Assembly: GCF_030247195.1 (NCBI RefSeq)
Contig: NC_080672.1
Coordinates: 25,427,906 to 25,491,905, forward strand
Reading direction: 5' to 3'
Source: Topomyia yanbarensis
Taxonomy: Eukaryota > Arthropoda > Insecta > Diptera > Culicidae
Length of the DNA stretch: 64,000 nt
Below the pieces are notes generated by a model. The model made no database searches. It was not told where the DNA came from and saw nothing but the letters and a program-made list of their open reading frames with translations. Positions 34,996 to 40,572 of this stretch are shown one piece after another. The first letter of the stretch is position 1. Each line of letters begins with the position of its first letter. The position numbers and the translations under genes were made by a program.

Positions 34996-35584
34996 GGGCA
35001 TTGAAAAAAACTTTTTTTTTAATTCTCAAAGGCCCCTCTCTCATATTGTGACAAATGACAAAGTAAGCGCAGATGCCAAATTTCACATCATTTGAACAAT
35101 TTTAGACCCCCGCCCACTTCGATTGAAATTTTTGAACTTGGTACTATGGGAAAATATGGAGGAAAAATATATTAAATGCTATAACTTTTGAAGTAGCACT
35201 CAAAAAATTACAATTCATACTTATTTTCAAAAGAAATAACCTTAGTATTTGAATGGAGATATTTCTGTTTCTCGAAAAATACGGGAAAGTGGGGTACTGG
35301 GTCATTTTGTTCCCAAAATCCCCTAAGTTAAATTATTTTTCTGCTCCGTGATGCAAATCGTACTTATTTTGCAGGTTTTCTAATGTGTAAAAATCTGAGA
35401 AATCGAACGGAACCTTATTGACCTTTTTCCGAATAGGAGAAGTTGGGGTTATAGGGCTTTTGTCATTCTTGCATATATCTCTATTATTCTTCAACCAATT
35501 TTCATAAAATGTAACTTGTTGAACGTGGAAAATTCTTAGGAATATAACAAAAATAAATTCGTTACCGGTAAAATTCAGAAACAT
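34996..35584 (+). repeat. Left terminal inverted repeat of the histone-bearing element
   Basis: Pairs with 39960-40572. Best blocks: TCGATTGAAATTTTTGAACT, TATAACTTTTGAAGTAGCAC, TGGAGATATTTCTGTTTCTC, AGAAATCGAACGGAAC and AAATAAATTCGTTACC. Similarity is very high to about 35470 and moderate to 35584. Confidence 0.85.
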
Positions 35585-35934
35585 TTTTTTGTAATTAACT
35601 ATACAAATCACATTTTTTGAAGTAGAATACTTCTAACGTTTCAATATGGGGTCCCATTTCAAAAATTTCAGTTGAGAAATTTTCCCAGGTTTGAAATGCG
35701 AGTATCTTCCGTTCTACTGGACGAAATCGCAATATTTTTGCACTATCTGATCGGAAATTTGTGCACGTGTTTCGTATTAAATTTCGGAATTACTGCGACT
35801 ACTATAAATAAACCAAAACAAGGATTTTCAGAAAATCCTTCGGAAACAGCGAGGAAAATGCGCAATTTGCCAGCATATCCCACGCAGAGCCGTCAAAAAG
35901 GAGCATGTAAGCGTTTCATTACATACGGGAATGT

Positions 35935-35972
35935 TATATATACAGGTCACACGAGCTTGTTTTGTATCAGTG
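35935..35972 (+). promoter_or_regulatory. Putative H4 promoter remnant (TATA and initiator)
   Basis: TATATATA at 35935-35942 is followed by TCAGTG at 35967-35972, a spacing of about 34 bases, as in insect histone promoters. It lies upstream of the H4 relic. Confidence 0.4.
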
Positions 35973-36048
35973 GGTGCTCGCTTACCACACGAGCAACATG
36001 CTCGTCCGGACGGTACAATGAGCGGTATCATGTTTGCGTTCCCGTACC

Positions 36049-36285
36049 AAGCGTCATCGCAAGGTTCTTCGTGATAAAATCCAGGGAATCACCAAATTCG
36101 GCGTCTGGCTCGTCGTGGTGGTGTAAAATGCATCTCCAATTTAATCTACGAATGCTGATGGTGTGCAGAAAAATGTCATCCGAGATGCCGTGACCTACAC
36201 TGAACACGCCAAGCGCAAAACCGCAATGAATGTCGTCTATACTCTGAAGCGGCAGGGACGCACTTTGTATGGATTTGGAAGTTGA
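36049..36285 (+). pseudogene. Histone H4 pseudogene
   Basis: Core nucleosome histone relic. From 36049 it reads KRHRKVLRDKIQGITK, then a 7-base deletion shifts the frame: [18 protein letters not shown] follows in the next frame. After another deletion of about 40 bases it resumes [16 protein letters not shown] and ends [21 protein letters not shown] at 36285. The N-terminal tail is missing, as is the stretch usually reading TRGVLKVFLE. A histone 3' stem-loop lies 33 bases after the stop, so this was a replication-dependent, intronless H4 gene. First of the histone relics inside the 34996-40572 element. Confidence 0.9.
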
Positions 36286-36318
36286 AAAGGTAGAACTCAC
36301 TTGTATCATTATAAAAAA

Positions 36319-36334
36319 GGCCCTTTTCAGGGCC
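36319..36334 (+). terminator. Histone mRNA 3' stem-loop (H4)
   Basis: GGCCCTTTTCAGGGCC, a perfect 6-bp stem with a 4-base loop, preceded by AAAAAA and followed by ACCAAA: the canonical processing signal of replication-dependent histone mRNAs bound by SLBP. Confidence 0.9.
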
Positions 36335-36717
36335 ACCAAAACCATTTCAAAGAATAAGTTTGCATTTTCTGTTTCATGGACTGTTTCTCCCTGGAGAGCA
36401 ATTTGGGTTAAACCCTAAATTATGATTTATTTCAGTACGTAAATTGCAAATATGGTCAGAAACAAACTGGAGTGAAGTGGAAAACATTTTTACTAGGCGC
36501 ATTCAAAAAAGGTTCCAATTCTCAAACATTTTACCAAGGTGCCGTATTACATTACTCTCTTTACCCTGAGTGTTCGATAATCTCCGTAGTGGAAACACAA
36601 TTTCAATTTTGTTCTTTATCAAAAATATGTGGTCGACCAACGAAGGGGTGGAGCTTCGAAGAACACATATTGAGGACAACACAAAAAAGGACGAGCTTAC
36701 ATTGTGCTGTAGTCAGG

Positions 36718-36754
36718 TATAAAAACTCAGCATGCTGTTGCTCACGCTCAGTTC
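36718..36754 (+). promoter_or_regulatory. Histone-type core promoter, unit 1
   Basis: TATAAAAA at 36718-36725 and the initiator TCAGTTC at 36748-36754, whose A is 32 bases from the TATA start: the standard insect histone layout. The mini-ORF ATG follows at 36770. Confidence 0.7.
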
Positions 36755-36769
36755 GTTTCCAGCATCAGC

Positions 36770-38240: not shown

Positions 38241-38276
38241 TATAAAAACTCAGCATGCTGCTGTTCACGATCAGTT
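38241..38276 (+). promoter_or_regulatory. Histone-type core promoter, unit 2
   Basis: TATAAAAA at 38241-38248 and TCAGTT at 38271-38276, the same 32-base spacing as unit 1. Confidence 0.7.
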
Positions 38277-38292
38277 CGTTTGCAGCATCAGC

Positions 38293-38397
38293 ATGCAGCA
38301 GTTTGTTTGCAGCATCTCCCGCAAAATTCAAACCGCAGTCCGTTTGCTGCTGTCAGAAGAGTTGGCCAAGCACGCCGTCTTCGATGGCACCAAGTAA
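38293..38397 (+). CDS. H2B C-terminal mini-ORF, unit 2 (34 residues)
   Basis: Same frame as 36770-36901 from ATG through FDGTK, then TAA. It differs from unit 1 by a 27-base in-frame deletion between two ACCAA repeats (loss of nine codons) and by two third-position changes (TTC/TTT, GCC/GCA) that are both synonymous. The stem-loop follows 24 bases after the stop. Function unknown; loss of the C-terminal TKYTSSK-type residues suggests it may be further decayed than unit 1. Confidence 0.5.
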   Translation: MQQFVCSISRKIQTAVRLLLSEELAKHAVFDGTK

Positions 38398-38421
38398 ATT
38401 TCGAACACTGCCCAAAGAAAA

Positions 38422-38437
38422 GGCCCTTTTCAGGGCC
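38422..38437 (+). terminator. Histone mRNA 3' stem-loop, unit 2
   Basis: GGCCCTTTTCAGGGCC, unchanged from the other two copies in this element. Confidence 0.9.
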
Positions 38438-39009
38438 ATCAATTTATCGACAAAGAATCGAATTGAAATTTTATTACAAGCATCAAAAAGTGGCTTGCCA
38501 AGAGCGTTGGATGGTAAGTGAGCCACTTGTGAACAATATCGTCGCTTTCAAGTCGAATGGCACAAAATAAAAAAGTTATTTGTGTGATTTGTAGACAGGT
38601 TAGTGTAATGATTCAATTTACAAAAATGTAGAATGTTCAATTACTGAAAATAACAGTTTTTGTGAAAGCAGTGGTTGGTCCATACAATTCGATTCCAAGC
38701 GAGCCAGACTAGTTTTCGTTGGAAGGTGCATCTCTGACAATAAAAATAAACTATTTTATTTTGAATTCAACTACAACTTCTTTGAAAACAACACAGCTAA
38801 AAACTTTTGGGAAAAACGCGCAAACCTAAATTTTCCACCATAATAAAAACTAGTGCCCCCGCCGCACAGCATCATCAAGATTGATAGTTATTCAAGCCGG
38901 GAGGAAAGGGAGAGGGAGGTTGTAAGGCAATGGAAAATTTCATTTATAATAATAATACTTTATAATTGGCTAGTTCTGAAAACAACTTGTTGGTTTGTGG
39001 TTTATTTTG

Positions 39010-39492
39010 GGTCACAATTTAGGCCCGCTCGATTTCTGATAGCTGTGAATTTTTCGCAGGGCGACTGTTTCTGTTCGGTAGCGATGAGGCTCTTAACGCC
39101 AACCGTGACTGGGGCACTTTTACACGACCTTCGTTGCCAACCAGCCCCCTGTCAAGGACGACGTCTCTGTACAGCCAGCATCACTGCCATGAAAGGCAAA
39201 ACATTGATTTTGAACCGAATGATTAGAAGCTGTATTTAGTTACAAAATGTCGATTAAATTAAATTATTAAATCATCCCACAAGATGCAAAACGTCGTGTG
39301 GAATGCTTGAATATCGAGCATAGTGCCGAACATAATTCTTTGTTTGGGGCTTTATAGCTATAACGCCCCATATATGTCGGTCGCTGTCAAACTCCATATG
39401 ATGGTATAGGGTTGCCAGGGGGTTGTTGCCAACTGCTTGCGGGGAGCCTTTCCTCCGGTGGACTTACGAGCGGTTTGTTTGGTACAGGCCAT
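39010..39492 (-). pseudogene. Histone H3 pseudogene, unit 2, split by a MITE
   Basis: Minus strand from the ATG at 39492: [20 protein letters not shown] then LAT, closer to normal H3 than unit 1 (only R2 changed to C). It is interrupted at 39425-39142 by a hAT-like MITE. Beyond that it resumes with KCPSHGW in a shifted frame and EPHRYRTETVALRKIHSYQK (usual [20 protein letters not shown]). The C-terminal half is missing. Confidence 0.88.
39142..39425. mobile_element. 284-bp hAT-type MITE inserted in the H3 relic
   Basis: Flanked by the 8-bp duplication TTGCCAAC (39134-39141 and 39426-39433). The left end CAGCCCCCTGTCAA and the reverse complement of the right end, CAACCCCCTGGCAA, match at 12 of 14 positions. 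The 8-bp duplication and CA-rich ends fit the hAT superfamily. Non-coding. Confidence 0.8.
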
Positions 39493-39959
39493 GTAGCGAA
39501 AAATGCTGATCTGCTACTTCTCTGATGCTGGTAGTAGGACGACGGTCAAACGCTCGTTTGCGTGCCTTCATTCATAAAAGTTCAACAATATTTTCAAAGA
39601 ATGTTGCAAATTGTCAACTTGATAATTCCAAAAATACTCCAAATAAACTATGAATGTGCTAAAGTCGACAAAATCGCATAGAAATTGCTTATTCCAGAGC
39701 AGAATTTACCGGTCTAAAGTGTATTCTACTTCACTCCGGTTATGTCTCTGACATTACCCACCCATCTTTTTTCAATAAATGTCCAAATACCTCAACTTCC
39801 CCTATTTTTCCAGGAATAAAACTTTTCGCATGTGATCCCTAAGAGTATTTTACACTAAAAGTAGTAAATTAAATAAGAATTTATTGTTAAATGGAGTTAT
39901 TATGTTCGATTTTATGATCAAAATGTGAAATCGAGATTAAATGTCAGAAAATTTGATGT

Positions 39960-40572
39960 TTATGAATTTTTGTGGTAACGAATTTATTTTTATTGTTTTT
40001 CTGAGGATTTTCCGCGTTCAATAAGGTACAGCTTTTCTAAAATTGAGTGAAGAATGATAGTGAAATATTCACGAGAAAATGATACAATTTAATATGAATG
40101 GCAAAAAACCCTATAACCCCAACTTCTCGTATTCGGACAAAGGTCAAAAAAGTTCCGTTCGATTTCTGAGATTTTTTCACATTATAAAAACTGCAAAATA
40201 TTTACGATTTCCATCACGGAGCAGAAAAATTATTAAAAATAGGGGATTTAGGGAACAAATTAACCCAGTATCCCACTTTCCCGTATTTTTCGAGAAACAG
40301 AAATATCTCCATTCAAATATTAAGGTTATTTACTTTAAAAATAGGTATGAATTGTAATTTTCAGAGTGCTACTTCAAAAGTTATAGCATTTAACATATTT
40401 TTCCTCCATATTTTCCCACAGTTCCAAGTTCAAAAATTTCAATCGAAGTGGGCGGGGGTCGAAAATTGTCCAAATGATGTAAAATTTGGCATCTGAGCTT
40501 ACTTTGACATTTGTCATAATATGAAAGGGGGGGCCTTTGAGAATTTAAAAAAAAAGTTTTTTTGCAATGCCC
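39960..40572 (-). repeat. Right terminal inverted repeat of the histone-bearing element
   Basis: Reverse complement of the arm at 34996-35584; see that entry for the shared blocks. Confidence 0.85.

Follow-up and report, generated by a model that had tools for sequence, protein, structure and literature searches.

The 64,000-nucleotide stretch of the Topomyia yanbarensis genome analysed here (contig NC_080672.1, positions 25,427,906 to 25,491,905, forward strand; "the window", whose coordinates are used below) lies at the voltage-gated sodium channel gene Vgsc, as a sequence-only reading of it had supposed, since positions 6359–6643 on the reverse strand match voltage-gated sodium channels. 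Between 34986 and 40582 it holds what are very probably two nested elements, namely an older element with long terminal inverted repeats (TIRs) in the Vgsc locus and, placed inside it later, a 4156-bp non-autonomous Helentron (HINE) that carries histone sequences. The parts of the two elements, apart from the histone cargo, are as follows.

34986..34993, no strand: left copy of the 8-bp target duplication CTGTCAAA, identical to the right copy
34994..35584, + strand: left arm of the old long-TIR element
35585..35614, + strand: inner stretch of the old element before the Helentron insertion
35615..39770, + strand: the histone-carrying HINE, 4156 bp
35615..35618, + strand: HINE 5' terminus, TTTT
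35619..35633, + strand: 15-nt palindromic subterminal repeat GAAGTAGAATACTTC
39721..39732, + strand: subterminal repeat on the 3' side, an exact 12-nt copy
39742..39754, + strand: 3' hairpin ATGTC-TCT-GACAT, fold -7.3 kcal/mol
39767..39770, + strand: HINE 3' terminus, TTTT
39771..40574, + strand: remaining part of the old long-TIR element, with the right arm
40575..40582, no strand: right copy of the target duplication

The sequence-only reading had proposed one inverted-repeat element with arms of about 600 bp, bounded by a TA target duplication, that had captured histones H4, H2B and H3. The arms are real: between 34994 and 40574, 458 nt were complementary at 89% and another 86 nt at 79%, far above chance, within spans of 34994–35584 and 39956–40574 whose tips read TAGGGCATTG at 34994 and CAATGCCCTA at 40574. 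TA, however, is part of the repeat tip, and the target duplication is the 8-bp sequence at 34986–34993 and 40575–40582. A search of the species' own genome (1168 Mb in 1044 contigs) with the left arm as query scored 40 of 4449 candidate places, the window among them; the other 39 were 83–88% identical to the arm. Seven other arm loci (L002–L008) were fetched at 3.6 kb each. Both exact tips were present in five of them, which are complete elements of 1.39–1.46 kb, and an exact 8-bp duplication bordered three of these five (L002, L003 and L005), with 7 bp in L007 and none in L006. The expected TA duplication and histone cargo did not appear in other arm copies; the histone stretch had no match in any of the seven loci.

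The histone part gave a different picture from the arm: with 35860–36488 as query, 40 of 1408 candidate places were scored, the window included, and the other 39 were 99–100% identical. Since histone sequence was absent from all seven other arm loci, and since the arm is 83–88% identical and the histone part 99–100%, the inverted-repeat element did not capture the histones, and arms and histones do not form one element. It is thus very improbable that a single element with ~600-bp arms took up histones and moved by cut-and-paste, even though the histone stretch still lies between intact arms and an exact 8-bp duplication; histone copies elsewhere also lack arms and have Helentron ends in unrelated flanks. 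The outer element is instead older, non-autonomous, about 1.4 kb long, associated with an 8-bp target duplication and unrelated to the inner element. In this duplication and in its short conserved TIR tip it is like hAT-like or P-like elements with 8-bp target duplications, a comparison that covers only the outer element, known here from its ends and duplication. At L006 (flanks of 1501–2958) the old element is bordered by an inverted, not direct, 12-nt copy (atggttgtgtat / atacacaaccat). Directly outside the old element in the window there is a 47-nt perfect direct repeat (34374–34420 and 34665–34711), and similar sequence adjoins the old element in L008.

The HINE is nested in this older element. 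When the flanks of the insert were joined without it, they aligned to six of the seven other arm loci (L003–L008) at 86.9–87.7%, a paralogous empty site, indicating that the HINE inserted in a T-run of the old element. The 5' end of the HINE is recognisable as TTTTGAAGTAGAATACTTC, and its 5' junctions read TTTTG+AAGTAG, also given as TTTTG+AAGTAGAATACTTC, in 21 of 21 aligned rows (20 distinct elements, because L043 and L044 overlap), while 12 of 12 3' junctions ended in CATCTTTT. The junction loci were picked for their close match, not at random; their flanks are unrelated, and identity begins at 35612–35615 and stops at 39770–39775 (the latter at the 12 loci reaching that end). A duplication of 8 bp around the inner element (CATTTTTT/CATCTTTT) was considered and rejected, as the junctions fit a T-run without duplication.

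HINEs are described as having palindromic subterminal inverted repeats of at least 11 bp, 2–4 nt from the 5' end and 38–60 nt from the 3' end, and a short hairpin 8–35 nt from the 3' end (Thomas, Vadnagara and Pritham 2014, PMC4067079). Here the target is T-rich, T stands at both ends and there is no target duplication. The two copies of the subterminal repeat share 12 nt and stand 4 nt from the 5' end and 38 nt from the 3' end, the palindrome being incomplete in the 3' copy, and the hairpin lies 16 nt from the 3' end. The longest stop-to-stop frame is 206 amino acids, leaving no coding capacity for Rep/helicase; no Pfam family scored above cut-off in the 14 HINE pieces tried, and a phage-collection search with 36000–36340 returned nothing.

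The HINE is abundant and has spread recently. Its last 50 nt occur 1,634 times in the genome (803 + 831) and a stretch of 61 nt from its H4 relic 729 times (350 + 379), each with at most 3 mismatches; reversed controls gave 0. Sixteen elements were read with both ends, the window copy included, and 12 were aligned pairwise. These 12 full-length copies, taken from the best-matching places and including the window copy, measure 4144–4184 bp and are 99.42–99.86% identical; outside the alignment are L044 (2632 bp), L060 (2819 bp), L061 (2916 bp) and L062 (4316 bp). A plain histone pseudogene cluster (orphon) caught by chance between two separate arm copies would fit relics that are broken and that include promoters and stem-loops, but 20 elements in unrelated flanks hold this stretch with identical ends and the HINE 3' end is present at the copy number given above; these dispersed copies with fixed ends refute it. 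Four 3' ends on contig C1, for which the listing gave no exact H4 match in the vicinity, are from this histone-carrying family as well, partly at lower identity; the cargo thus looks like a regular part of the HINE family, in a small sample. In L059, no H4 part was present within the stretch read.

Some copies differ in structure. A match breaking at 38625 was common to six places, four of which were read (L039, L040, L041 and L051), their 3' ends falling outside the stretches read. In these four, another repeat made of two ~1-kb tandem parts stands at the same point after the equivalent of 38625, with different 5' flanks. At L043/L044 (C3:291055000-291068167), two HINE copies lie in opposite orientation with 5' ends 2.6 kb apart, one of them without a repeat unit.

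The cargo of the window copy comprises one H4 relic, two H2B tails, two H3 N-termini and three stem-loops. An H4 relic with its TATA-like box and stem-loop is followed by two tandem units, each with an H2B TATA-like box, H2B tail and stem-loop on the + strand and H3 pieces on the - strand.

35935..35942, + strand: TATA-like box upstream of the H4 relic, by eye
36018..36288, + strand: H4 relic, broken by stops and frameshifts; matched to H4 by phmmer at best E 1e-16 (36148–36285) and 1.6e-5 (36025–36126)
36314..36359, + strand: histone 3' stem-loop (H4), RF00032, 37.7 bits
36489..37856, + strand: repeat unit 1 (H2B tail on +, H3 relic on -), direct-repeat families D1, D3–D5, D7, D10 and D11, 89–96%
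36718..36725, + strand: TATA-like box TATAAAAA of H2B relic 1, by eye
36770..36901, + strand: 43-amino-acid open reading frame (ORF) with the H2B C-terminus at its end; matched to H2B by phmmer at best E 3.2e-21
36921..36965, + strand: histone 3' stem-loop (H2B-1), RF00032, 34.8 bits
37669..37845, - strand: H3 relic of unit 1, 83.3% identical to L068, an intact H3 gene in this genome
38012..39503, + strand: repeat unit 2
38293..38397, + strand: 34-amino-acid ORF, H2B relic 2 with shortened C-terminus
38417..38461, + strand: histone 3' stem-loop (H2B-2), RF00032, 32.5 bits
39029..39141, - strand: inner part of the H3 relic of unit 2, 83.6% to L068
39425..39518, - strand: 5' untranslated region (UTR) end and N-terminus of the H3 relic of unit 2; phmmer to H3, best E 3.4e-8; 85.1% to L068

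The relics of all three histones named in the sequence-only reading were borne out by phmmer against PDB sequences; a Pfam scan of ten short HINE pieces returned no histone family. Of the three stem-loops that it named, all on the + strand, two exceed the Rfam RF00032 gathering score of 34 and the third falls just below it. The E-value of 3.2e-21 for the 43-amino-acid ORF comes from a chain with two copies of the protein, the next best being 5.7e-10. This ORF is identical in 10 of the 16 elements with both ends, shorter in L058 and L044 and variant in L062, and the exact start string used for the count is absent from L045, L060 and L061; because the copies are so young, the identity is uninformative on selection. 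The broader notion that histone genes ride on a non-autonomous DNA element, which scatters their promoters and 3' ends, was right, but the carrier is the nested Helentron and not the inverted-repeat element.

Relatives of the HINE also stand in intact histone genes. In a genome search with PF00125, 150 of 4258 candidates were scored, and each of them reached 164.8 bits, as did the H3 genes read; a single place lies on C2, and the others form arrays on C1, C3, C73, C271 and C603 as well as smaller groups. Reading on both sides of H3 covered one type of array unit, and no unit in full. The intact array H3 gene (L071, L072) has an A-run in its TATA box (GACTATAAAAAAAATCGG) and a second A-run 21 nt past the stop, followed by a stem-loop of 30.4 bits, below cut-off. 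A search for the two junctions of a HINE-H3-HINE arrangement scored 40 of 4463 candidates. Of these 40, 13 (including the composite described below) run from the H3 TATA junction into a HINE 5' end, 9 over the full 176 nt and 4 over 50–56 nt, with identity clearly lower in the HINE part than in the H3 part; at C3:146664119 the match runs 66 nt into a HINE 3' end after H3. The thirteen places are not independent events, because unequal exchange multiplies array units.

Two of the thirteen, L073 (1–204) and L074 (1–199), carry a sister 5' end, TTTT+GTCGTGACTAACGAC, with 38 nt at 84% to the HINE, and L070 (1–160) carries a sister 3' end with a histone stem-loop of its own (RF00032, 39.9 bits) 108–153 nt from the end. 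All three sister ends lie in the TATA A-run or the 3'UTR of H3 genes. A reference H3 gene, L067 (1–218), has a third end, TTTT+GACATTAAAAATGTC, at the same TATA A-run, for which BLAST gave no match to the HINE. This end recurs at 99% in L058 (5626–5838), an unrelated place on C2, and identity stops exactly at the A-run, which makes it a dispersed element with a Helentron-like 5' end. Three Helentron-like families have ends at one site, the H3 TATA A-run, a count that the sequences bear out.

The composite itself is at C3:104.32 Mb. A PF00125 match (C3:104323778-104324155) falls within L036, where a complete H3 coding sequence (136 codons plus stop, 2459–2869) lies inside a 515-bp segment (L036:2376-2890, C3:104323677-104324191) bounded, head to tail, by the 5' end of one HINE and the 3' end of another, the two copies being called HINE-A and HINE-B. 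The segment contains no histone stem-loop, those of L036 all being inside HINE sequence. We slightly favour two independent HINE insertions in an H3 gene whose 3' part was later cut off by rearrangement, with no gene captured or moved: both HINE ends stand exactly at the A-runs known from the intact gene, the flank beyond HINE-B ends in GTATAAAA, possibly an old TATA box, and the full composite was found once among the 40 scored places. Less easily explained in that way is the flank beyond HINE-A, which is not H3 3'UTR but a dispersed repeat (89–90% to stretches in L008, L033, L039–L041 and L051), with no histone stem-loop within 392 nt. These outer flanks suggest that either such a rearrangement occurred or the composite moved, and joint movement by end bypass, with everything between the start of HINE-A and the end of HINE-B carried along and an intact H3 coding sequence brought elsewhere, is a serious if less probable possibility. 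The two HINE ends delimit the H3 sequence exactly, over that stretch it is 100% identical to eight array copies, and neither outer flank matches the H3 genes read, save for the possible TATA box at the HINE-B junction; against movement stand that possible remnant, the single copy and the lack of a donor composite among the scored places.

Elsewhere in the window, 19583–20770 (+ strand) holds a reverse transcriptase frame (PF00078, 82.7 bits).

Two nested elements remain the best explanation of the window itself. An older non-autonomous long-TIR element first inserted in the Vgsc locus with an 8-bp target duplication, and the HINE later entered a T-run mid-way in it. The HINE probably moves by rolling-circle replication with the Rep/helicase proteins of an autonomous Helentron, and may have gained its histone segment after landing in a histone array, by reading past its own 3' end. 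Members of this Helentron family or of similar ones now occupy A/T-runs in H3 promoters and 3'UTRs, the setting that such a capture would need; recurrent histone capture by Helentrons is put forward as a hypothesis. Several points weigh against this account. The autonomous partner is presumed, mobility is deduced from copies within a single genome, and the empty site is paralogous, not orthologous. One sampled copy (L061) lacks any intact stem-loop. No cargo-free member of the HINE family was seen in the small sample read, so that the order in which the HINE came first and the histones later depends on the sister elements only.

A histone-carrying Helentron as such is already known from one published precedent, Helentron-Cq-32A of Culex quinquefasciatus, with H4 and H1 fragments in eight copies (Thomas, Vadnagara and Pritham 2014, PMC4067079). 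That paper states that histone capture by a Helentron was undocumented in other organisms, and titles and abstract openings of the literature searched, with subscription journals and Repbase outside scope, revealed no further case. Like the present element, Helentron-Cq-32A is a Helentron with broken histone fragments, H4 among them, in several copies. As far as its published description goes, it is set apart as a Helentron family with H4 and H1, whereas the element here is non-autonomous and has H4, two H2B and two H3 relics, stem-loops and very many 3' ends. New relative to Helentron-Cq-32A are thus the non-autonomous state, the other histones, the very many young copies and the relatives in H3 promoters. 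The HINE and DINE-1 elements treated in the same paper share T-ended termini, subterminal inverted repeats, a 3' hairpin and a T-run target, and likewise lack a target duplication and a Rep/helicase gene; unlike them, the present family has histone cargo in its body and sister elements in H3 promoters. Transposable element insertions in the Drosophila histone array have been described (PMC12400953); in the accessible text of that paper the words Helitron and Helentron are absent and two mentions of DINE-1 concern Stellate clusters.

Tentatively, and with the odds against it, these elements may represent a Helentron clade that lives off replication-dependent histone arrays by repeated insertion in TATA-box and 3'UTR A-runs, capture of promoters, coding pieces and stem-loops by end read-through, and genome-wide spread, with C3:104.32 Mb as a recent capture of an intact H3. 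R2-type elements in rDNA arrays, which offer an analogy, are likewise residents of an essential tandem gene array; unlike them, the present case consists of Helentron-like ends at histone A-runs, known from sequence alone. Histone genes are essential, clustered and cell-cycle controlled, and in this mosquito a young mobile family has dispersed histone promoters and stem-loops in hundreds of copies, while its relatives occupy TATA boxes of intact H3 genes. Two questions thereby become testable, namely by what route Helentrons acquire genes and whether mobile elements influence the dosage of histones and the structure of their arrays.

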